NCBI GenBank assembly: GCA_003327425.1
Contig: QOQW01000004.1
Span: 186,001-250,000, forward strand
Reading direction: 5' to 3'
DNA from: Candidatus Ozemibacter sibiricus
Lineage (GTDB): Bacteria > Muiribacteriota > Ozemobacteria > Ozemobacterales > Ozemobacteraceae
DNA length: 64,000 nucleotides
Positions 6,552 to 64,000 of this stretch are shown here, one piece after another. How positions within the stretch are numbered: the stretch's first letter is position 1; the number at the start of each line of letters is the position of its first letter. A program made the position numbers and the translations under genes. The notes beneath the pieces were generated by a model. That model was not told the origin of the DNA, ran no database searches, and saw only the letters and a program-made list of their open reading frames with translations.

Positions 6552-8465
6552 TCATGCCGCCGAGCCACCCGCGGCCGGCGGGAGCGGCGGCGGGATCTTC
6601 CCCACTTCTTCGGCCCAGGCTCGCACCGGCTCGACCATGCCACGTCGCACTTCCTGGACGAACAGATCGGCGATCGTGCGGATGGCCGGCTCGAGCGAGC
6701 CGCCCTTCCGCGGCAGCCAGAAGGTGGCCTGCACGTGGCAGACCACCCACAGGAGCACCGCCCCGCCCAGGAAGATGCCAGCCCCGGGCTCCTGCGCGGC
6801 CAGCAGCGACCAGACGAAATACCGCAGCAGCAGCAGGATGATGACCAGGGGCCCCAGGTTGAGCAGGAAGCCTTCGGCTCCCGAGGTGCGGGGCTCGAAG
6901 ACGAATTCGCTGATCTGCTCCTGGATGCGGCAGCGCACCGCCGGCGCCAGGGCGTCGTCCTGACCCAGCCGCGCCAGCAACGGGCCGCCATCGAGGTCGG
7001 CCCGGTCGGCCCGTTCGGCGAGGGCCCGCCGGAACCGCTGCCGGTGCTCATCGACCACCGGCTGCAGATCGGTCAGCAACCGCTGGGCCATGACTCCCTC
7101 CAGGTCGGAACCGGCCCCCGACAGGAACATCTGGAACCGCCCGGCCAGGGCATCGACCGCCAGCAGCAACCGCACGTACAGCCCGAACGGCCCGCTCAGC
7201 CCTTCGGCCGCGGCCGCTTCGCGCCGGCGCCGGATCTCGGGCGTCAGGCCCCGGAAGGCCTTGCCCATGGCCCGTTCGAGGTCGGCCTGGCACTCCCTGA
7301 CCCGCTCTTCGGCCCAGACGACGAGGCCGGCGGCCAGGTCGCGGGCGGCGGCCAGACGACAGGCGGCGGCCACGTGCTCGGCCGTCTCCCGCCGCATGGC
7401 GGCGATGTTCTCTTCGCTGATGCGCCGCACCAGGGCCTGGTCGAGCCGTTCCCGCAAGAAGGCCTCGAGCGCCGCGAACTGCCCGACCGGCCCGCTGACC
7501 GGGCCGCCGGTCTTCTGCAGGAGGGCATTGCGGGCCGAGACGGTGAACAGCGGCAGGGTCTCGCCGTCGGGGGGGCGCAAGCCCAGAGGAGCGATCTTGG
7601 CCAGCAGATCCCGGCGGATCTTCTCGGAGAAGGGAATGCCTTCATCGATGCGGTTGAACACGAAGACGACCCGCCGGAAGCCCATCTCGCGCCCCAGGAT
7701 CTCGTACAGGATCTGCGAATCGTATTTCTGGGTGGTGACCACGGCCAGGGCGAGGTCGGCCCGCTCCAGCACCTGGCGGAAGACCTCGCGGTGCTCGAGT
7801 TCGATGCCGTCGAGATCGGGGGTATCGACCAGGATGATCCGTTCGAGGGCGGGTTCGGCATGCACCACGACGAGGTCGTCGTCGCGCAGCACCCCGGCCA
7901 GGCGCGTGCGCGCCAGCCCTTCCCGGCGCTGATGGACGAAGACGGCCGGCCGCCTGGTGTAGCAGGCCCGCGCCGAGGCTTCCCCGATCTCGCGGCCGGC
8001 CAGGGCGTTGACCAGGGTGGTCTTGCCGACTTTGGTACCGCCCAGCATGACCACGATCAGACAGTCGGCGATCGCTTTCTCGCGCTGCCGCAGCAGGCCG
8101 AGGCGCCGCTCGACCTCGGCGTCGAGACCGGCGGCCGGCCGCCCCCACAGGCGCCGGGCCTCCCGGACCAGCCGCGCCAGGTCGGCCGCCAGCGACAGCT
8201 CCGACGGCAGTTCGCCGGCCGGTTCGCCAGCCCCGCCCGGTCCCTCGCCTGCCGGGTCGGAGCCCGCTGGGGGAAAGGCCGGCAACCCGTCGGGCGGGCG
8301 GCCCGCTGCGGCCACCCGTGGCACGACCGGCGGCTCCGGCGGCGGCGCGAGGGCTCCCGGCCCTGGCGCTGAGCGGCCTTCCACACCCGAAGGCCCGCCG
8401 GCTCCCGCCCCCGGCTCGCGCCGCAGGACGGCCCCCGCGGCCGTTCGCCCGTTCTCACAGGTCAT
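6552..8465 (-). CDS. Dynamin-like GTPase with C-terminal membrane spans
   Basis: 637 residues. After a Pro/Gly/Ala-rich N-terminus (to about 85) comes a GTPase domain with P-loop GGTKVGKTT (142-150), G3 DTPD (214-217) and G4 NRID (271-274), so nucleotide binding looks intact. A helical region follows, then two hydrophobic segments near residues 555-605, and a conserved-looking amphipathic tail. The ATG at 8465 overlaps the end of the upstream GTPase gene by 11 bp and is preceded by AAGGAGGT, indicating translational coupling. Paired large GTPases with membrane-active C-termini suggest a hetero-oligomer acting at the inner membrane, by analogy with tandem bacterial dynamins. The assignment to the dynamin/Era-like class rests on motifs and architecture only. 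Confidence 0.82.
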   Translation of the reverse strand: MTCENGRTAAGAVLRREPGAGAGGPSGVEGRSAPGPGALAPPPEPPVVPRVAAAGRPPDGLPAFPPAGSDPAGEGPGGAGEPAGELPSELSLAADLARLVREARRLWGRPAAGLDAEVERRLGLLRQREKAIADCLIVVMLGGTKVGKTTLVNALAGREIGEASARACYTRRPAVFVHQRREGLARTRLAGVLRDDDLVVVHAEPALERIILVDTPDLDGIELEHREVFRQVLERADLALAVVTTQKYDSQILYEILGREMGFRRVVFVFNRIDEGIPFSEKIRRDLLAKIAPLGLRPPDGETLPLFTVSARNALLQKTGGPVSGPVGQFAALEAFLRERLDQALVRRISEENIAAMRRETAEHVAAACRLAAARDLAAGLVVWAEERVRECQADLERAMGKAFRGLTPEIRRRREAAAAEGLSGPFGLYVRLLLAVDALAGRFQMFLSGAGSDLEGVMAQRLLTDLQPVVDEHRQRFRRALAERADRADLDGGPLLARLGQDDALAPAVRCRIQEQISEFVFEPRTSGAEGFLLNLGPLVIILLLLRYFVWSLLAAQEPGAGIFLGGAVLLWVVCHVQATFWLPRKGGSLEPAIRTIADLFVQEVRRGMVEPVRAWAEEVGKIPPPLPPAAGGSAA

Positions 8466-10419
8466 GCCGGAAGACCTCCTTCCAGAGATCCTGCAGGCGG
8501 GCGATTTCGAGGCCGACATCCTTCACGCGCAGATCGATCGGGGTGAGCAGGGGGGCGACCGGCGCGTACAGCCAATCGGCCGCCGCCAGGAAGATGGCCC
8601 GCCGGGTCTTGGCGAAATCCTCGCGGGCCCGCTGGATGAAGGGCTCGCGGGCCAGCGATTCGCCGATCTCCAGCAGGTTGGCGGGCAGGATGCTCTTGAG
8701 CCGATCGAAGACGGGCAGGGCCAGACCGCCCAGCAGATACTCGGTGGCGCCGGGCAGGAAGGTCATGGTCTGGATCGACAGCACGGCGGCGGCCAGGCCG
8801 GCCAGGGCGGCGAACCCCGGCACGACCGCCTTCATGGCGGTGATCAGCGCCGGATTGTCGTCGCAGAATCGTTCGAGGTCGGTCTCGAACCGCACGATGA
8901 CGGGCAGCAGCTGCCGTTGCACCGCTTCCCGGAAGTGGCGGTCCAGGCGCTCGGCCAGTTGCTCCGGGGTCGGCAGGTCGATCGCCTTCAGCTCTTGATG
9001 GAATTTGACCAGCAGCGGATGCCCGCTCTCGGCCCGCTCCCGGGCGAACTCCAACAGGTCGTAGCGGGCGTTCTCGAGAATCTGCCGCGCCTGCTGCAGA
9101 TCGCTGTCATCGCGCCGGGCCACCGGGTCGGGGGGCGCTTCGCTCGCCCCGAACAGCCCGCCGATGGACAGCTTCCGGAACGTCCAGGCGAGGGCATCGC
9201 CGGCCGACCGGTTGAGCTGGCTGACCAGATCGCCGACCGGCGTCTGGATCCGCGGCCCCAGCACCCGCATGATCGCCCCCTGCAGCTCGAACGGCGCCTC
9301 GTGTCCGGGCAGCCGCCGCAGCGGATCGAACAACTGCTGTTCGAAGCGCTGCTGGGTGGCGGCGATGACCCGGCGCCATTCCCGCTGGCGATGGACCAGC
9401 GACCGGGCCGCCGTCGCCAGCCGCCCGCCCGCCTGATGGAGGGCGTGCCAGATCCCCTGGGATTTGACCCGGCGCCGGGCGGCCTGCATCTCGACCAGCT
9501 TCTGCCGCAGGCTGGCGAGCTCGGCCGGCGGCAGCAAGCCTTCGCCGTCGCTGAGATCGGGATGCTCGGCGACCCGGAAGATGGTCCGCTCGTTCTCGGG
9601 CCAGCGCTCGCCATACTCGCGCACCATGTCCTCGAGCGCTTCGGTGTGACGGGGCAGGGCCTGGTTGAAGACGTCGAAGCGGCACCGCATCAGGGCCATG
9701 GCCTCGTTCAGGAAGCGGATGCCGGATTCGTCTTTGTACTTCTGCTGGGTGGTCACCCAGATGGCGAAGTCGGCCAGACGCAGCCCGAAGCGGGTCGCCT
9801 CGCGGCAGCGGGTATCGGAGCTGTCGATATCGGGGGTGTCGAGCAGCAGGGGGAGGTCATCGGGCCACTCGCCATGCTCGGTGCGGTAGACGGCGTGCCG
9901 CGGGGAATCGGGCCGCGCCAGGTCGGTGGCCGGCCGCAGAGTGAACGCCGGATGGGCCTGCACCAGCGCTTGGAGCCGCTCGACCGACCCCAGCCCGATC
10001 AACCGCTTGGTCTTGCTGGCGGTGCTGCCCGATTCGCTGACCACCCGTCCGGCCAGCGAGTTGACCAGCGTCGATTTGCCGACATTGGTGCCGCCGCACA
10101 GCAACCCGACCAGCGGCAGCTCGAGGCCGGCCCGCGCTTCGGGGATCAGCCGATCGCGCAGCAGGATCAGCCCCAGTTCGAGCCCGGACAGATCGAGATC
10201 GGCGAAGCGGGCCGGGAACGACTGCACGGTGGCGATCGCCACCTCGACCCAGCGGGCCAGGTCGTCGGCGCGGCTGAGCAGCTCTTCGACCCCGCCCGGG
10301 CCAGGGAACTCAGGCAGATCGGCGCCGCCCCCCTCGCCGGCGTCGCGCTCCTCGGGGCCGTCGCCCATCCCCTTCCCCTTCGCCCATTCTTCGGCCGACC
10401 GTGCCGGTGCCTGTGTCAT
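8455..10419 (-). CDS. Dynamin-like GTPase, partner of the next gene
   Basis: 654 residues. P-loop GGTNVGKST (109-117) and G3 DTPD (194-197) are clear; the G4 position reads VFNQALP rather than NKxD, so base recognition may be altered. The rest is mostly helical, with a hydrophobic stretch near residue 560 (AVVPGFAALAGLAAAVLSI). The chosen ATG follows a GGGAGGG stretch about 13 nt upstream; an extended frame to 10668 would overlap the vWA gene and lacks conservation-like composition. It is 26 bp downstream of the vWA gene and overlaps the following GTPase gene by 11 bp. The two GTPases share overall layout (N-terminal disordered segment, GTPase, helical stalk) and are probably ancient paralogues acting as a pair. 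Confidence 0.8.
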   Translation of the reverse strand: MTQAPARSAEEWAKGKGMGDGPEERDAGEGGGADLPEFPGPGGVEELLSRADDLARWVEVAIATVQSFPARFADLDLSGLELGLILLRDRLIPEARAGLELPLVGLLCGGTNVGKSTLVNSLAGRVVSESGSTASKTKRLIGLGSVERLQALVQAHPAFTLRPATDLARPDSPRHAVYRTEHGEWPDDLPLLLDTPDIDSSDTRCREATRFGLRLADFAIWVTTQQKYKDESGIRFLNEAMALMRCRFDVFNQALPRHTEALEDMVREYGERWPENERTIFRVAEHPDLSDGEGLLPPAELASLRQKLVEMQAARRRVKSQGIWHALHQAGGRLATAARSLVHRQREWRRVIAATQQRFEQQLFDPLRRLPGHEAPFELQGAIMRVLGPRIQTPVGDLVSQLNRSAGDALAWTFRKLSIGGLFGASEAPPDPVARRDDSDLQQARQILENARYDLLEFARERAESGHPLLVKFHQELKAIDLPTPEQLAERLDRHFREAVQRQLLPVIVRFETDLERFCDDNPALITAMKAVVPGFAALAGLAAAVLSIQTMTFLPGATEYLLGGLALPVFDRLKSILPANLLEIGESLAREPFIQRAREDFAKTRRAIFLAAADWLYAPVAPLLTPIDLRVKDVGLEIARLQDLWKEVFRHDL

Positions 10420-10445
10420 GCTCGTCTTCCGCCCTCCCGGGCCCG

Positions 10446-11480
10446 TCAGCGACGGCGCTTGAGGGAGGCCGCCCCGGCCCGCACGGTCAGCTCGAGGCCG
10501 CCCGGGCGGGCGAGATCGAAGGGGGCGCTCACCTCGGCCACCTGGACATTGTTGACGATGCCGGCCAGCCGGGTGAACCAGGTGGCCAGATCGCGACTGT
10601 CGGGCACATAGACGTAGTAGCCGTCGGTCTCTTCGGCGAGACGCTCGAGCACATCGACCTGGACCCACCCGAACCCCAGCACGAAGAGCGAGACCTCATG
10701 CAGGCGGGCGCGCTTGATGACATCTTCGAGCGTGGCCCCGCCGACATTGTCCATACCATCGGTGGTGACCATCTGGAACCGCAGCCAGGGAGCTTTCTGG
10801 ATCGGCTGCAGGGCGGTGTCGATGGCGGCATAGAGGGCGGTGCTGCCCTGGGGGATGTCTTGCCGAACGGCATTCTCGAGCGCCACCGCATCGGAGGACA
10901 GCCCGATGATCTGCCGCACGTCGGTCTGGAATTTGTACACCGCGCCGGCGTACGGCAGGGTGAGGGCTTTCAGGAAGCTGCTGTAGTTGTCTTTCAGCGC
11001 CTGCAGGTCGTCGGCGAACATGCTGCCCGACCAGTCGAGCACGCAGGAGAAGTGGGCCCGCTCGCCCCAGGAGGCCATCTGGTGCAACGGCGTGACCCGC
11101 TCGACCGTGACCGGTTGCAGCCGCCCGGTGGGATCGGCCAGGGCGACCTGCACATCGCCCGGCGGCACCACGACGAGGGGCGCGCCCTGGGCATCGGTGA
11201 CCGAGAACAGCACGGCGAACCGCTTCTCGGCCAGCCGCAACACCCGATGGAGACGCAGCGTCTGATTCAGGTTGTCGACCGGCTTGGCGCCGCTCGGAGC
11301 CCGGGCCCCGCCAGCCAGGTAGGGGCGCCAGGATTCGATCGTGCTGTTCCCCGCCCCCCATGGCGACCGCAGCGCCCACCACAGCCAGAGCAGGCCCGCC
11401 CCCCCCACCACGGCCAGGAAGGCGAGGTAATGCCAGTAGCGGATCGAGATGGGCGCGCTGCGCGGCGGAACCTCAACCAT
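10446..11480 (-). CDS. Membrane-anchored vWA-domain protein
   Basis: 344 residues with one N-terminal membrane span (about 17-37) and a von Willebrand A domain (about 140-320). The MIDAS first loop is DWSGSM (149-154, DxSxS pattern); later loops GSTALY and TTDGMDN supply the remaining metal-coordinating positions, so Mg-dependent ligand binding is plausible. A short beta-like region lies between the span and the vWA domain, with a basic tail SLKRRR. It lies in the same operon as the tubulin-like protein (135-bp gap) and the GTPases. In the family context described for tubulin-like FtsZl-1 systems, a vWA protein is one of the fixed partners. The Shine-Dalgarno is weak (AGGGGGC). Confidence 0.85.
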   Translation of the reverse strand: MVEVPPRSAPISIRYWHYLAFLAVVGGAGLLWLWWALRSPWGAGNSTIESWRPYLAGGARAPSGAKPVDNLNQTLRLHRVLRLAEKRFAVLFSVTDAQGAPLVVVPPGDVQVALADPTGRLQPVTVERVTPLHQMASWGERAHFSCVLDWSGSMFADDLQALKDNYSSFLKALTLPYAGAVYKFQTDVRQIIGLSSDAVALENAVRQDIPQGSTALYAAIDTALQPIQKAPWLRFQMVTTDGMDNVGGATLEDVIKRARLHEVSLFVLGFGWVQVDVLERLAEETDGYYVYVPDSRDLATWFTRLAGIVNNVQVAEVSAPFDLARPGGLELTVRAGAASLKRRR

Positions 11481-57177: not shown

Positions 57178-58725
57178 TCACTCGGCGGCCGACACCTGCA
57201 ACGAGGCCTTGAACCGAATCGCCAGAGCGACGATCGCCCCCGCCGACACGGCCATCACGCCGATGATCGTGGCGTCGATCCAGCCGCCGGGGCCGTAGCC
57301 GTGCAGCCCCCAGAGCAGGAAGCCCGAAGCCAGCCCATCGCCCGCCCGGAACACCAGCGTATCGATGAACCCCTTCCCCTGGTATTTCTCTTCGCGCGTG
57401 ACCAGGGTGAACATCAGCTCGCGCAGGGCCCGCCCGGTCGAATAATTGGTCGCATAGCGGAAGACGACCACGGTCGCCGCCACCACCAGAGAGGCCTCGG
57501 TGCTCAGCCACAGCGAGCCGAGGATCTGGCTGACCGGCAGCACCAGCAAACCCCAGACCGGCACCGTCAGCCGCATGAACCCCCAGGTCAGGGTGAACTG
57601 GGTCAGCAGCGACACGCCATTGATGGCGTTGTAGAGGTTGGCCCAGTAGACGGTGCGCAGATCGCGCGAGGGCAGGGTCTCCTCGACCAGGGCGTTGACC
57701 TGATACGAGAACAGGCTGCTGGCGAACGTGTAGCAGAACATCTCCAGCGCCAGCAGCAGCAGCAGGGAAGACCTGAACGTGCAGGTCAGTCCGTCCCAGG
57801 GGCGCGGCTCCGCCGGCCGAGAATGGGCGACGGTTGTTCCGTCCTCATCTCTCGGGCGAGGCAGCCACGCCGGCAGCCAGGCCGTCGGCATCAGCAGGGC
57901 GGCCGCCACCAGCAATAGATGGGTCGTCCCGACCGCCGACGCCAGCCAGGCCGTCAACAGCCCGCCGGCCAATCCGCCGACCAACCCCCCATAGCCGATC
58001 ATGCCGTAGAGTCGTTTGCCCTGAGCCGTCGTGAAGACATCGTTCACGTATGACCAGAACATGCTGATCGAAAACAACGCGAACAGGTTGACCCAGACGA
58101 AATACCCGGCGATCATCACCACCCCCGCCCAGGTCACCAGCCGCCCCGACCCCGGCATGACCGGCGCCGGCTCGGCCCGGGCGGCAGGTCTGCCACCTTC
58201 CTCGAGGCGCATCACCTCGACCGCCTCCCGAACGGTGGGGGAAGCCAGCCTCGCCTCGCTCCGACCAGCCGAGGCCGCCTCCCCCTCCAGTCGCCCCCCG
58301 GCGCCCCCGGCTTCCGCCGAGGCGACCGCCGGAACCGCGGCCGGGAGCGACGACGATGCCTTCTCCATCCTGCTTTCCCCGCCCGCGCGGTGCAGCGATA
58401 TGACCTGGAACCCGCCCCAGAAGCCCAGCAAGCAGACCACGAACACCCAGGTGATGCCAGGGATGAACCGTTCAGGCCGGAACCGCCCGACGATCCAGGT
58501 GTAGAGCGCATTGCCGCCGATCAGCGAGAGCATCGACAGAATGTTCAAGGCCGGGATCGTCTGCGATCCCAGCTCGATCGCCAGGCTTTCCCGGATCGGT
58601 TTCAGCACATAGTAGGTCATGATCAGGAAGCCGAACCCGACCACGGCCACCCAGGCCATCCGGCGCTCGCCGACAGGTCGATCCGCCATGACGGCGACCG
58701 CGTGCTCTGACGTTCCTTCCGGCAT
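57178..58725 (-). CDS. NTT (ATP/ADP-carrier)-like major facilitator membrane protein
   Basis: 515 residues with about 12 hydrophobic spans. The first span ends LIMTYYVLKPIRESLAIELGS, the hallmark of the TLC/NTT-like carriers (YYxLKPxRDSL), here given in part as YYVLKPIRESL. A charged cytoplasmic loop of about 90 residues (about 110-200) interrupts the spans after the third. Free-living bacteria carry such Npt1/Npt2-like proteins, where transport of nucleotides is unproven and some are fused to HEAT or cyclic-nucleotide domains. The start at 58725 follows GGAGGGATA; a frame from 58764 lacks such a site. It is separate from the HEAT-repeat gene upstream on the other strand. Confidence 0.82.
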   Translation of the reverse strand: MPEGTSEHAVAVMADRPVGERRMAWVAVVGFGFLIMTYYVLKPIRESLAIELGSQTIPALNILSMLSLIGGNALYTWIVGRFRPERFIPGITWVFVVCLLGFWGGFQVISLHRAGGESRMEKASSSLPAAVPAVASAEAGGAGGRLEGEAASAGRSEARLASPTVREAVEVMRLEEGGRPAARAEPAPVMPGSGRLVTWAGVVMIAGYFVWVNLFALFSISMFWSYVNDVFTTAQGKRLYGMIGYGGLVGGLAGGLLTAWLASAVGTTHLLLVAAALLMPTAWLPAWLPRPRDEDGTTVAHSRPAEPRPWDGLTCTFRSSLLLLLALEMFCYTFASSLFSYQVNALVEETLPSRDLRTVYWANLYNAINGVSLLTQFTLTWGFMRLTVPVWGLLVLPVSQILGSLWLSTEASLVVAATVVVFRYATNYSTGRALRELMFTLVTREEKYQGKGFIDTLVFRAGDGLASGFLLWGLHGYGPGGWIDATIIGVMAVSAGAIVALAIRFKASLQVSAAE

Positions 58726-58786
58726 TATCCCTCCATCTGCCTTGGCACGGTCTCGCCGGGGCACCGGCGCCGCCGACGTGCGCCCA

Positions 58787-58996: not shown

Positions 58997-60253
58997 TCAG
59001 AGCATCTGCCAAGGAATGGCCAAAATGTTCTCCGCCAGACGCAAGGGACGCGGACATCGACAGATCACCCACCCCGTCTCCGCGCGACCTGGATGATCGG
59101 CCAGGAACCGCCGCAGATGACGGGTATCGCTGCCCCCTGGCCGCTCGGTCCATTTCACTTCGATCGGAATCAGGCGCTCTCCATCCTCGATCACGTAATC
59201 GATCTCGGCCCCATCGGCTGAGCGCAGAAACAACAGCCGCCCTCGCCCGAGGTACTGGAGACGGCGCCACAGTTCAAGGCCCACGAACTGCTCGAACAGG
59301 GGGCCTGGGTTGGCCAGAACGGTTTCTCGCGAGGGCGGCAGTCCGGCCGCTGCATGCCGAACTCCCAGATCGAAGAACAAGAAGCGCGGCGATGTCAAAA
59401 GGTTCTTGCGAGGAGAAGAAGTGAACGCCGGGAGATGGATGCCGATGAACATGTCTTCGAGCAGTTGATAGTAGTTTTTGACCGTCGGCACCGAGACGCC
59501 GGCCTCGCGCGCGATGGATGAATGGTTGATGATCTCACCTGAAGCTTGAGCAGCGAACTGCAAGAACCGGAGAAAGGCTCCCCAGTCTTTGACCGCCGCC
59601 TCACGACGGATTTCCTCTTCCAGATAGGCGGTGACATACGAGGCCAATAGCTCGGCCCGATCCTCGGCCTCGGCCAGGACGATTCCTGGCAGCGCCCCAA
59701 CCGCCAGCCTGGTTTCAAGATCGAAGGACGGAAAAGGGCCACGCCCCTCTGCATCATGCGTTGGTGGAAAGGGCAGCGGCGTCAAGACAGCCCCCTTGGT
59801 CTCCCCCATCCGTGGTGCGGGAGGCTGTTCCGACAAGGTCAGAGGCCATAATCGGTGCAAGAAACTTCGGCCTGGCAGCAGGTTGGCCCCCGAACGCCGC
59901 AGCTTGCGAGCCGAGCTGCCGCACAGGATGAATCGCCATCTGGTTCGGTCGCGATCGAACAAATGCTGGACCGCATCGAACAGGGCCGGCACCGCCTGAG
60001 CTTCGTCGACGATGATCGTCCAGGCGGAAGAGCGAGCGGGCAACGCTTCGCACAGGTCGACGAACTCTTCGGGGCGGGCGGCCAGGCGAGCCCGCTCCCC
60101 AGGATGGGAAAGATCGAGGCGAATGGCATCCGGCGGCGCGACCAGATCGATCAGGGTCGATTTCCCGGTCTGGCGAGCCCCGAACAAGATATGCACCCAA
60201 GGCCGGGCGAGCTTGGCCCGAAATTCTGGGAGGTACCACCGATGGCAGGACAT
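58997..60253 (-). CDS. AAA_14/DUF4143 ATPase
   Basis: 418 residues. ATPase domain with Walker A GARQTGKST (near 26-34), Walker B TIIVDEAQ and sensor ILCGSSARKL, followed by a winged-helix region (about 240-290) and the DUF4143 C-terminal domain with GAEIDYVIEDGERLIPIEVKW, a PD-(D/E)xK-like nuclease pattern. Members are common accessory genes, often near mobile or toxin-antitoxin loci, with poorly known function. The ATG at 60253 has no Shine-Dalgarno, only an AT-rich leader. Promoter TTGTCT-17-TAAAAT at 60288-60316. It lies between two remnants of another gene pair, in the opposite orientation. Confidence 0.88.
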   Translation of the reverse strand: MSCHRWYLPEFRAKLARPWVHILFGARQTGKSTLIDLVAPPDAIRLDLSHPGERARLAARPEEFVDLCEALPARSSAWTIIVDEAQAVPALFDAVQHLFDRDRTRWRFILCGSSARKLRRSGANLLPGRSFLHRLWPLTLSEQPPAPRMGETKGAVLTPLPFPPTHDAEGRGPFPSFDLETRLAVGALPGIVLAEAEDRAELLASYVTAYLEEEIRREAAVKDWGAFLRFLQFAAQASGEIINHSSIAREAGVSVPTVKNYYQLLEDMFIGIHLPAFTSSPRKNLLTSPRFLFFDLGVRHAAAGLPPSRETVLANPGPLFEQFVGLELWRRLQYLGRGRLLFLRSADGAEIDYVIEDGERLIPIEVKWTERPGGSDTRHLRRFLADHPGRAETGWVICRCPRPLRLAENILAIPWQML

Positions 60254-60537: not shown

Positions 60538-61092
60538 TCAGCGGCGAGAGCGCTTCACCCGGCGCTTGTAGGATTTGGATTGCGCGGGCAACGTCGGATC
60601 GACGGGAGGCAGCGGAGCACCGCCCGCGATGGCCCCCGGATTGTCGGCCGGCAGCGGGGCGAAGCCCTGGGACGGCCCCTGGCCGGGAGCCTGCCCACCG
60701 CCCTGACCGGGATTGGCGCCGCCCTTGCCGCCCTTCTTGCGGGTGTTGCGCCGCCAGTGCCCATTGGTCAGGGTCTTGTTGCCCTTCTTGTAGTGGCCGC
60801 AGACCCAGACGCGCTTGGGCCGCTTGCCGGTGATCCGCGATTTGATCTTCACGCCGGTATCCATGATGCGGTTCTGGATGCGCGCCCCCGTGAGCACGAT
60901 GCCGCGCTTGATCTTCTTGCAGACGCGCTTGATCTTGCGCTTGATCTTGCGATAGGTGCGCGTGAAGAAGCCGACTTTCTTGTAGTGCTTGTGCTTGCCC
61001 TTGGCTTCGGCCTGACGGCTCTCACCACCCGCGAGGAACAGGCTCAGGGCCAGCATGACCACCATCACCCACCGGTAGCTGCGAACCAACAT
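60538..61092 (-). CDS. Exported, strongly basic protein
   Basis: 184 residues. A signal peptide (about 5-30, ending QAEAK) precedes a Lys/Arg-rich region (about 31-120: KHKHYKKVGFF, RKIKRKIKRVCKKIKRG) with two cysteines. A Gly/Pro/Gln-rich stretch (about 122-165: GQGGGQAPGQGPSQG) and a basic tail (SYKRRVKRSRR) follow. GGAGGT before the ATG at 61092 fixes the start. It may bind nucleic acid or anionic surface polymers outside the membrane; no family recognised. Confidence 0.7.
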   Translation of the reverse strand: MLVRSYRWVMVVMLALSLFLAGGESRQAEAKGKHKHYKKVGFFTRTYRKIKRKIKRVCKKIKRGIVLTGARIQNRIMDTGVKIKSRITGKRPKRVWVCGHYKKGNKTLTNGHWRRNTRKKGGKGGANPGQGGGQAPGQGPSQGFAPLPADNPGAIAGGAPLPPVDPTLPAQSKSYKRRVKRSRR

Positions 61093-61512
61093 ATCGGGAC
61101 CTCCGCATTGCATTTCAGACGTATGCAATTATTTTATCCGCCAACCCCACCCCCCCGGAAGGGGTACCCCCAAAAAAGATCCAGCAGCGTCCTTTCCGTA
61201 AGTATGACCAACTTGTGTGAGGTAAACGCGGGACCTTTTCTCCATCATGATAATGGAAGTGACAATTGTGACCCGCATCCCCCCCTCCCTCACCTCAGGG
61301 CCCCTTGCCCGAGAAGGTGAGAACCGCGTTCGATCGTTGCCGGGCGACCACTCCGATCCATCTGCGCCGCATCCCTGAAGACTGTGGCAGATGGCTGCCG
61401 AACTGGCCGCAGCGACTTCGGTGACGGCCACGGCTCGGTGGTGAGGTTTGGCATCCAAGAAACTGACCAAGCAGGTGGTTCGCCGGTATGGACGGTTTGG
61501 TTGGAATCCTAG

Positions 61513-61722
61513 TGTTCAGGTTGGGAAGCCTTCCTCGACGGGATCAATGTACCAATCCATCGTGCTAACACCGTTTTCATGGCACTGGCCCTCCCTCCCG
61601 GAGCACATCTGATGGAATGGCGGTATCGCCCATGCGGGTATCCTTGGCTCCTTTTACCTTCTGCCTTGGCGGCATTGGCCTTGCTTGGCATCCTCAGCTT
61701 CCGAGCCGTTGGTCGACTCTTT
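61513..61722 (+). pseudogene. YfhO-family membrane protein remnant (C-terminus only)
   Basis: The frame reads SGWEAFLDGINVPIHRAN, then PPGAHLMEWRYRP, then a hydrophobic span LLLPSALAALALLGIL. This is the end of YfhO-type glycosyltransferase-like membrane proteins (pattern GWxAxxDGxxxPIxxAN ... xPxGxHxxxxxYxP plus last span). A TAG lies three codons before GWEAF in the same frame and nothing recognisable precedes it. The frame has no stop before the pseudopilin ATG at 61774, so the two are now continuous in frame. Confidence 0.55.
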
Positions 61723-61749
61723 ACAGGTCCGGGCCCGGTGGGTTATAAT
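61721..61749 (+). promoter_or_regulatory. Promoter of the giant pseudopilin gene
   Basis: TTACAG (61721-61726), 17-bp spacer, perfect TATAAT (61744-61749). The start near 61756 leaves an 18-nt leader containing AAAGGA. Confidence 0.7.
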
Positions 61750-61773: not shown

Positions 61774-64000
61774 ATGACGAAACGTGGGTTTACTCTAGTC
61801 GAGGCCATGGTCATGATCCTCATGGCTGCCATCTTGATCGTTCCAGTGGTCGGGGTCATGACCAATACTGGCACCAGCATTCGGGCAGCTGAACTGCGCA
61901 ACTTTATGCAGAACCTCGCCGAGGCGAAAATGGCTCAGCTCTTCCATGATGCCATGTTCTCCCAGCAAATGCCGGTCTCTCAGACGGCTTATCCTGTTCC
62001 CTATCCCAGTGTTGATCCCGAATTCAACATCATGGTTTCCACCGAAGTTTCCGAACCGATCACCATCAGCGGCCAAACCTCATCCACCTACGACTTCCTC
62101 GAGGGACCGCAGCCCGCAGGGCTCATGGCGGTTTCTGTCCAAGTCTGGCTGGCCGAACCTGAACCCGAAATCGCCACCATCACCCTCTTTTCGCTCATCA
62201 GCCCTCCCACTCCTCCTCCCGACCTGATCTACCTGTGCGCTCCTGTCGCCAAGCAGATTCTGGTTGTCCACCCCATCAGCCACGAGACACTCAAAACTTA
62301 CGATCTGCCTTTTCCTCCGATGTATGCCGCCGTCCACCCCAATCGAGAGTATCTTGCGGTTAAATGCCCTAAACACATCCTTCTTGTTAAAATTCAAGAA
62401 CCCAACGAAGGAACCGTCTATATCGCGTATGATGCCGGCGCAGGCGACATCTGCCTGTCGAATGTCGCCGCCACCGGAGACAATAATGCCCGCCTAGACC
62501 GCGGTCTTGTTTTCCGCTCCGACGGAAAATATCTGTATTTCACGCACGCCAGTCTCAACTGTTTAATGATGCTCACTGTCCCCTCAAACCTCCCAGGATG
62601 CCCCTGGTCTTCCACCCCTCTCTCCCCCGTTCTTAGCTCCAATCGCACCACCGACATGGAGCTTTTGCAAAACGGCATGATCGCCATTACCAGCAAACCT
62701 GGCGTCACCAACAACGAAGTACGATTTTTCAACACCCATAACCATACTATGGTTTCCAAGTTTATTGGGGCAACCACCGCCAAAGAAACCGTCACTGGGT
62801 CCCGCGACGGGCGCTATGTCTACTATCGGGAAGGGTCTGACACAATAACCGAAGGGCTGTACGACGCCCCTACCCTTCAATATTCTGGCGATTTCACTGG
62901 ATCAACTTTCGGAGGCGCCAACGAAAAATTCGACATGGTCGTCACCCCCGACAACATGTGGTTGGTTATCGCCGGCATCAGATCTGGCAATCAAGAGCAC
63001 CTGTTCGCTTTCAAGCGGCCACTTGAGGCATTTCAAAATCCAATCAACCTAGCCCTGCTAGGTGGTAGTGCCACCCCTGGCTCACGACGCTTTGCCAAAT
63101 CAAAAAACCTGGACGGCATCATAACCCTCTATGTTTCCCCTTATTCTAAGGAACTCGTGGGCATTAGCCAATCCTCAAAGGTTTTCTACCCCAATATCGA
63201 AAAACTGGCCAAAGGCTCCTACGAATCCACCCTTATGCCTTACAAGGAATATTCCGAAACCATGTCCGACGCTGCTTGCCGCGAACCAGAGCTGGTCTGG
63301 ATCGCCTGCTCTGATGGGTCCACCAAACACCAGGTTGAATGTGTCGACATTTATCGATCTCCAGGAATGTTCCTCGATAAGAACCGTCAAATTCCCCTGA
63401 CTGCCAGGCCTCGCTTCATCTATCCTACTGCCGGCGCCGACCAGATAGAAATCTGCCTCGATGGCACCAATGCCCCCCGACCGCTTGACCCCGTCACCTG
63501 CTACCTAGCCGATCATACTCCCGCACTGGTTATGCCCACTTCGGGCAACCCCGTCAAAGCGTACCGCCTTCTCGACCGCAGCATGCTGGTGCTGCTCGAG
63601 AACAGCGCCAGCACCTGGAACGGCGACTTTCCCGGCACCATTACAAATGTCAACAACATCACCAATGGATTTTTGCTTTTCCGAGCCGACAGCACGGGCA
63701 ACCTCGAGTCGACCGCCTGGCTAGGGTACAATCTTCCTGGCACGGAAGGGTATAAAATCCGCCATGCGGAGCCCCTGCGACGCCACGACGGTGCTTATGT
63801 CCTGATCAGCAAAGACGCCAATGCCCAAGACGGAGTGCTGTTTTGGATCGAAAAAAGCGCGAGCGGCGGCTTGACCGGCGCCGAAGGAACCAACGTCTAC
63901 CGCATCATGAATATGTGGCAGACCAAATTTGACGGCTTTCCCGAAGGCAATCCGACCCATTTTGCCTTATCATATGACGACGGCTTGATGGTGATTCACG
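61774..64000 (+). CDS. Giant pseudopilin with propeller-like body, 3' end missing
   Basis: At least 742 residues, open at the right edge. The N-terminus is a prepilin leader: MTKR-GFTLVEAMVMILMAA, with the cleavage site G-F, the Glu at position +5 of the mature protein and a hydrophobic helix, so it should be cut by a PilD-type peptidase. Ordinary pseudopilins have 120-250 residues. The long body contains beta-rich repeats such as KQILVVHPISHETLKTYDLP, AAVHPNREYLAVK and VFRSDGKYLYFTHA, resembling YVTN/WD-type propeller blades. Codons are visibly less GC-biased than in the rest of the window. AAAGGA and a strong promoter support the ATG. Probably a minor pilin or adhesin at a pilus or type II-like pseudopilus tip (inference). 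Confidence 0.8.
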   Translation, partial: MTKRGFTLVEAMVMILMAAILIVPVVGVMTNTGTSIRAAELRNFMQNLAEAKMAQLFHDAMFSQQMPVSQTAYPVPYPSVDPEFNIMVSTEVSEPITISGQTSSTYDFLEGPQPAGLMAVSVQVWLAEPEPEIATITLFSLISPPTPPPDLIYLCAPVAKQILVVHPISHETLKTYDLPFPPMYAAVHPNREYLAVKCPKHILLVKIQEPNEGTVYIAYDAGAGDICLSNVAATGDNNARLDRGLVFRSDGKYLYFTHASLNCLMMLTVPSNLPGCPWSSTPLSPVLSSNRTTDMELLQNGMIAITSKPGVTNNEVRFFNTHNHTMVSKFIGATTAKETVTGSRDGRYVYYREGSDTITEGLYDAPTLQYSGDFTGSTFGGANEKFDMVVTPDNMWLVIAGIRSGNQEHLFAFKRPLEAFQNPINLALLGGSATPGSRRFAKSKNLDGIITLYVSPYSKELVGISQSSKVFYPNIEKLAKGSYESTLMPYKEYSETMSDAACREPELVWIACSDGSTKHQVECVDIYRSPGMFLDKNRQIPLTARPRFIYPTAGADQIEICLDGTNAPRPLDPVTCYLADHTPALVMPTSGNPVKAYRLLDRSMLVLLENSASTWNGDFPGTITNVNNITNGFLLFRADSTGNLESTAWLGYNLPGTEGYKIRHAEPLRRHDGAYVLISKDANAQDGVLFWIEKSASGGLTGAEGTNVYRIMNMWQTKFDGFPEGNPTHFALSYDDGLMVIH

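Follow-up and report, generated by a model that had tools for sequence, protein, structure and literature searches.

A giant modular pilin with predicted tandem beta-propellers and a nested lectin module in Candidatus Ozemibacter sibiricus

In the portions of the literature on which we draw here, a complex made up of the minor pilins H, I, J and K starts the type IV filament, stays at its tip and presents the adhesin PilY1/PilC there (PMC9934059, PMC8179133). PilY1/PilC (T4P_PilY1, PF05567) is like the protein analyzed in this work in being a large propeller tip adhesin with variable partner domains (PMC8179133, PMC9934059), but it is not a pilin, whereas the propellers of our giant are part of one, with leader and helix present. 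Modular pilins, more than 1,200 of which were counted in a 2021 survey (PMC8179133), are exemplified by PilB and PilC of S. sanguinis; these are described as a pilin module with C-terminal grafts, as in the giant, and are thought to lie at the tip (PMC8179133, PMC9934059). The grafts include ConA-like lectin, PA14 and vWA modules, and S. sanguinis PilC, a lectin-bearing minor pilin, binds glycans (PMC8179133, PMC9934059). The most extreme multi-domain example of the survey, named for its number of domains and not necessarily the longest, has 860 residues (PMC8179133). Compared with these proteins, the giants have frames of 1,440 to 2,531 residues in the 24 loci examined, far beyond any pilin named in the literature consulted for comparison, and carry three predicted tandem propellers and a binding module that is nested in a propeller and not appended. 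The accessible text of PMC8179133 and PMC9934059 names no propeller-bearing pilin among the modular ones.

The nearest functional precedent is PilX2 of Saccharibacteria, described in the available part of its report as a minor pilin with a 7-bladed beta-propeller that is needed for full host binding (4.6% versus 10.6% of host cells bound upon its deletion; PMC12206443). It differs from the giant in having a single propeller, made of RCC1 repeats, a leader that is not predicted to be cut by PilD, and no lectin insert in the description available (PMC12206443). The Kil pilus of Myxococcus is similar in that minor pilin complexes with variable domains serve as exchangeable tips, and unlike in that it is of the Tad type and has four sets of tip genes; the main text of that report, as available to us, does not use the word 'propeller' (PMC12075869). 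Our literature search, conducted largely outside subscription journals, found PMC12206443 as the sole paper on propeller-bearing pilins and none on Riflebacteria pilins, nor any experiment on the tip location or binding of the giant; the part of PMC7509429 that was consulted holds nothing on Riflebacteria pili.

The gene begins near the end of the 64,000-nucleotide stretch that we analyzed (the window; C35:186001-250000 of a 5.68-Mb genome), which cuts it after codon 742 (Table 1). Read on the contig, the frame continues without a stop from ATG 61774 to contig position C35:252828, giving 1,684 codons, so that a previous reading of the window, made from the sequence alone, had covered less than half of the gene. 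That sequence-only reading had proposed an oversized pilin of more than 700 residues behind a prepilin leader, and both proposals are upheld with the remainder retrieved. The median open frame of the genome's leader matches (n=126, E up to 1) is 247.5 residues, and the giant is about seven times as long as a usual pilin-type subunit. Its leader, MTKRG/FTLVEAMVMILMAAILIVPVVG (MTKRG/FTLVE) when translated from ATG 61774, is by eye a canonical class III prepilin leader and falls under the PF07963 cut-off of 21.2 bits, by little in the genome scan (20.6 bits) and by more in the whole-protein scan (13.3 bits); the glutamate at +5 is invariant in 11 of 11 aligned members of the giant family. An alternative ATG at 61579 lies upstream of a promoter-like site that agrees with the consensus at 11 of 12 positions (shuffle mean 0.2), and because this site falls between the two ATGs, 61774 is the likely start.

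Table 1. Features of the giant pilin locus (window positions unless a locus is given)
Feature	Position	Strand	Basis or remark
Exported lysine-rich protein that borders the AT-richer island on the left	60538..61128	-	The paralogue at the right border has the same orientation
Candidate sigma-70-like promoter, TTTACA-18-TATAAT	61720..61749	+	24 bases upstream of the start codon; pattern match only
Giant minor pilin gene, first 742 codons	61774..64000	+	Rest outside the window
Leader; predicted pilin part with an alpha-helix (model residues 8-61) and a beta-sheet of pilin type (strands between 70 and 142)	61774..62202	+	Model of the window's 742 residues
Predicted first propeller, residues 147-506, YVTN-like	62212..63291	+	Predicted structure and structure matching
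Predicted start of second propeller, residues 507-742	63292..64000	+	Model of homologue L055, transferred by alignment; approximate boundaries
Lysine-rich exported paralogue, right border	L003:13839-14405		Same orientation as the left border

The propeller-like repeats that the sequence-only reading had seen in the body reappear in the predicted structure, which is not the repeat-free body that would have contradicted it. The model of the giant's own 742 window residues (pLDDT 74.3, pTM 0.70, 11 sequences) assigns residues 1-145 to the pilin part, followed by a first propeller that, over residues 149-504, matches 1l0q_A, a YVTN propeller from an archaeal surface-layer protein (Z 29.8, rmsd 2.5, 290 aligned); its number of blades, seven, is borrowed from the structural matches and not counted in the model. 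What follows was modelled on an insert-free homologue, L055 of genome G005, whose residues 512-1453 gave a model of poor overall quality (pLDDT 59.4, pTM 0.51, 8 sequences). In this model, residues 17-597 match lactonase-type/YVTN propellers (1ri6, Z 27.0; 1jof_A, 26.9; 1l0q_A, 26.9) and enclose an extra region of poor model quality; residues 603-942 match Kelch propellers (9mez_D, Z 28.6, rmsd 2.9, 295 aligned). Transferred by alignment, the second propeller of the giant would run from residue 507 or 509 to about 1096, with the extra region at about 766-1015, and its Kelch part, which lies outside the window, about 1097-1684; its second (YVTN/lactonase-like) and third (Kelch) propellers would thus be laid out as in L055. 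In the giant itself, Pfam detects Kelch repeats above cut-off (Kelch_6, 3.5e-13) and a legume lectin domain (PF00139) at residues 1296-1498 (1.7e-8, 34.8 bits against a cut-off of 26.3), which sits ahead of the last Kelch repeats, between the halves of the predicted third propeller. The predicted body is therefore one of three tandem beta-propellers with a legume-lectin insert. A phmmer search of the lectin part against solved structures gave no match, and a profile of the region at about 766-1015 gave weak matches to them, the best at E 0.15. By eye this region had seemed PA14-like, an idea that we dropped, as Pfam finds no PA14 domain in any of 17 family proteins.

With the giant as query, matches were obtained in 21 of 56 genomes, of which 18 belong to the same family and three lie outside it, the latter matching through the Kelch part only. 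The Kelch-only frames of G031 and G038 have no pilin leader at their start and are not giant pilins, and the match in G043 was not counted as one either. A profile of the N-terminal 742 residues, with matches listed to about E 1e-4, hit all 39 genomes of the phylum, although in 20 of these the listed matches comprise the leader and pilin part only, as ordinary pilins would give. Among the matches listed, those of 19 of the 24 genomes of the same family reach well into the propellers (some frames are cut by contig ends) and a twentieth, G004, holds the Kelch end, so that the giant or a fragment of it is present in 20 of 24 genomes of its own family and in 0 of 15 genomes of the other families of the phylum. 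The four family members lacking a listed match (G002, G008, G010 and G016) have completeness values of 91, 64, 67 and 84. A scan of public genomes, from which the window's own record may be missing, returned 16 loci, 11 of them named Candidatus Riflebacteria/Rifleibacterium, one each named Methylomirabilis and Erysipelotrichia, and three named no further than 'uncultured bacterium'.

The Kelch slot of the giants and its surroundings vary in content. A Pfam scan of 17 giant-family proteins (three of them, L039, L047 and L035:5607-10199, partial) found a legume lectin in two, LamG_3 in four, F5/8C above cut-off in five and an NHL propeller in one, some proteins bearing more than one type of insert. 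The scores in the homologues were 4.5e-17 for the legume lectin, 4.8e-61 for LamG_3, 2.6e-16 for F5/8C and 1.5e-52 for NHL. Two proteins, L034 and L036, have an insert-free slot in the alignment, and no inserted module above the Pfam cut-off was found in L040, L042, L044, L048, L050 and the partial L047. The alignment places the inserts in neighbouring loops around a TPYGI...GG motif. Against its three nearest alignment rows the giant has 29% identity in the first Kelch part and 42-43% in the last, and the lectin copy of G001 is the sole row with whose insert its own aligns well (36% over 218). The giant is a member of a conserved family with a variable head, and not a one-off. G001 also holds a third giant (L035:5607-11968), with a Kelch part bearing LamG and F5/8C modules, which is scattered across several frames and thus either broken or misassembled.

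Downstream of the giant, a 249-residue protein of the K kind starts 9 bases past the stop, with no terminator-like site in the gap; it lacks the +5 glutamate, and its assignment was made by look and context, with GspK matched in 2 of 13 members (best 0.086). The best matches of the K-family profile among solved structures, proteins called 'Fiber' (E 7.6e-5), do not suit a pilin-type neighbour and were taken as chance or composition, so we claim no structural identity for K. Next come two large genes, for a TPR-repeat membrane protein and for a weakly YfhO-like one (E 0.0059, below cut-off), and then, on the other strand, P0006, assigned to H (GspH, 6.1e-8, 32.9 bits against a cut-off of 80), and P0005, a J-like pilin by context. 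As H and J lie on the opposite strand past two membrane-protein genes, they share no operon with the giant. The giant's own pilin part weakly matches PilV (3.4e-4, 21.1 bits against a cut-off of 52.2), a profile found in 3 of 10 members at scores above 1e-4; GspI is also matched weakly, in 4 of 10 (best 1.6e-3), and ComGE in 7 of 10 (best 2.6e-5).

The H, J and K profiles all hit alongside a full-length giant in nine of 24 loci (L003, which is this genome, L034, L036, L037, L038, L040, L041, L042 and L045) and alongside contig-cut giants in two more of the 24 (L039 and L046), hits that are partly by construction because the profiles were built from members including these loci; the first evidence for these neighbours had come from plain BLAST with the locus of this genome. 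At L035, H and J lie beside one giant, with K across the border of the stretch, and K, H and J lie beside the broken one; L043 has K alone, and L047 and L053 have no clear giant. At L044, L048-L052 and L143-L145, where some of the stretches are short, the profiles gave no hit to H, J or K next to the giants. L044, L048-L052 and L145 represent genus g11, among whose relatives are reindeer and goat gut records.

The N_methyl profile has 126 matches in the genome at E up to 1, of which 83 are flagged over cut-off. The genome also has 10 genes of the PilT family that pass the cut-off, five secretins and two prepilin peptidases, and the PilT/secretion-ATPase profile matches it 28 times. The leader matches form 68 groups at a 3-kb gap, 47 of them pairs, a large stock of pilins for a genome of 5.7 Mb. 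PilY1 (PF05567) was found in 0 of the 39 genomes of the phylum by a search that was silent in the controls too; a second search matched 26 of 189 genomes (20 over cut-off), all related to this genome at the domain level only, and this shows that the search works. The 17 giant-family proteins scanned likewise gave no match to this domain (E up to 1 or up to 0.1, depending on the scan).

Codon use in the giant had been read from the window as less GC-rich than elsewhere, and it is so. Its GC3 of 0.61, outside the norm of the genome, compares with a mean of 0.855 (sd 0.044) for 30 window genes and of 0.814 (sd 0.055) for 238 genes in 20 other stretches, none of which is lower, in a comparison whose gene filter (GC3-GC2 > 0.12) disfavours low-GC3 genes and whose stretches were picked around pilin leaders, not randomly. 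The other genes of the island have values of 0.66 (K), 0.71 (TPR), 0.67 (YfhO-like), 0.53 (J) and 0.57 (H). Copies of the giant in the same genus have ordinary GC3 (0.82 and 0.89), and the giants of relatives (11 loci) are near the GC of their own loci, which makes the low value a peculiarity of this genome. The two border genes enclose 12.7 kb with a GC of 0.554, and the stretch to the right has 0.690. The border genes are paralogues (54% identity over 106 aa; 69% over 263 bases), probably too diverged to be easy recombination sites today. A minus-strand gene at 58997-60253 in the window, ATPase-like by eye, also has a GC3 (0.70) below that of its neighbours; no match to it was found in the stretch of G001 that was searched, and the two genes flanking it are about as far apart there.

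In G001, a genome of the same genus, its own giant cluster comes directly after relatives of window 57178-58764 (61-71%) and of the left border gene (69%), which means that the giant locus occupies the same chromosomal site there and that the site is old. A single place in the searched G001 stretch matches both border paralogues. The giants of the two genomes at this shared site are 29-30% identical in long matches and differ in composition, and the single window gene compared, 8455-10668, shares 74% identity with its counterpart in G001 and 81% with that in G002. A fixed, old site with diverged giants fits replacement or very fast turnover, as far as can be read from these sequences, and transfer of the cluster is possible, as is the different selection that the sequence-only reading had offered as an alternative. 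We considered transfer from a lower-GC relative, but the tree of the N-terminal 742 residues places the giant with G005 (low GC) and two G001 copies with the nearest relative not resolved, and we therefore claim no donor.

The giant has a leader and predicted pilin helix and, in the same chain, an extra non-pilin module, which are two marks of a modular type IV pilin. We consider it probable that it is a modular minor pilin that provides a retractable type IV pilus with a built-in tip adhesin. Its short leader would be removed by prepilin peptidase, and the pilin part would fill the I (GspI/PilV) place of an H-I-J-K priming complex; as that complex starts the filament, we propose that it ends up at the tip. 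The propellers could then be a long arm doing the job of PilY1, covalently attached, and the module in the Kelch loops (in the giant a legume lectin, in relatives LamG, F5/8C, NHL or none) would contact the ligand, probably a polysaccharide. Swapping of this module over evolution could have changed specificity, and motors of the PilT type would pull the attached cell or substrate in. Display at the pilus tip is suggested indirectly by the H, J and K genes at the locus, by the PilT, secretin and prepilin-peptidase genes and by the failure to find PilY1. Tip location, leader processing, ligand, glycan binding and force are what we infer, and PilX2 (PMC12206443) and S. sanguinis PilC (PMC9934059), as far as their reports were available, are the precedents on which a tip adhesin with an exchangeable head is proposed.

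The composition of the island raises the question of whether the giant might be cargo that serves no role at present, either acquired horizontally or in decay, its low GC3 marking a recent arrival. Such an origin would account for a GC3 of 0.61 where the means are 0.81-0.86, for the still lower values of H and J, for 12.7 kb at 55.4% GC lying between two paralogous border genes, for the ordinary composition of the copies in the same genus, and for the third G001 copy being spread over several frames. However, the frame is intact across its 1,684 codons, the site is identical in G001, with left-flank genes 61-71% identical, and at least a fragment of the family is present, among the matches listed, in 20 of 24 genomes, so that we regard a role as mere cargo as very unlikely.

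Two further explanations accept a functional protein and place it elsewhere. The giant could belong to a type II-like secretion pseudopilus, in which H-I-J-K would prime a short piston and the propellers and lectin would bind exported enzymes or capture surface polysaccharide. LamG, F5/8C and lectin modules are also frequent in polysaccharide capture; H resembles GspH, if below cut-off (6.1e-8), some I members weakly resemble GspI, and the five secretins and 28 PilT/secretion-ATPase matches indicate that several machines may exist. We nevertheless find this unlikely, given that the 10 PilT-family genes passing the cut-off speak for pili that retract, that pilus genes are present yet PilY1 was not found, and that a subunit of 1,400-2,500 residues would fit extracellular display better than a piston. 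It could also be a surface lectin anchored in the inner membrane by its pilin helix and never polymerised, with the propellers as a periplasmic or surface scaffold or sensor. The genes that follow K seem by eye to encode two large membrane proteins (TPR, weakly YfhO-like), not further pilins; yet a leader glutamate at +5 that is invariant in 11 aligned members and the recurrence of H, J and K as neighbours argue for a filament subunit and make a mere anchor highly improbable.

Other large frames with pilin leaders were observed in the phylum. In G026 (contig G026:C17; L135:1804-20000 and L136:1-2101), an open frame of about 6,765 residues starts with a prepilin leader and contains Kelch repeats (1.3e-64) and PKD-like repeats; it is possibly among the largest pilin-type proteins. 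The same genome has a 3,778-residue frame (L137:4459-15792) that contains PD40 propeller repeats and a beta-helix and, on an assumed GTG start, a pilin leader, and G034 has a contig-cut frame of 1,828 residues (L138:3-5486) with a BNR match below cut-off. As read from sequence, the G026 frames would extend the pattern of large, repeat-bearing pilins to another family of the phylum. In the genome studied here, the longest frame with a leader match, C21:30759 (1,935 aa), is not counted as a giant pilin because the match is at residue 763 and a longer frame lies on the opposite strand. C47:64767 (L103:9765-11642) is a 626-residue pilin in which we had seen, by eye, two tandem F5/8C-type domains; Pfam finds none at E 0.01.

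Modular pilins are already known as a class. Within the literature searched, what looks new is the size of the giants, the three tandem propellers, the nesting of a binding module in a propeller and its exchange across the family, and so does the coincidence of giants with the apparent absence of PilY1. Beyond the tip adhesin itself, we put forward, tentatively and as a somewhat doubtful extension, that Riflebacteria, being without PilY1, have fused a propeller adhesin onto an I-type minor pilin; that the Kelch propeller is a cassette slot in which glycan-binding modules are exchanged at a fixed site; and that the same invention was made again elsewhere in the phylum, in the 6,765-residue frame.

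If the reading of the giant as a built-in tip adhesin is true, it would show that a pilus tip can be given its propeller adhesin in a second way, by covalent attachment, and this in a phylum in which the search found no PilY1. A nested, exchangeable module makes a direct test possible, since the same arm with a different head should have a different target. The giant suggests how this uncultured group may choose its partners or polysaccharides.
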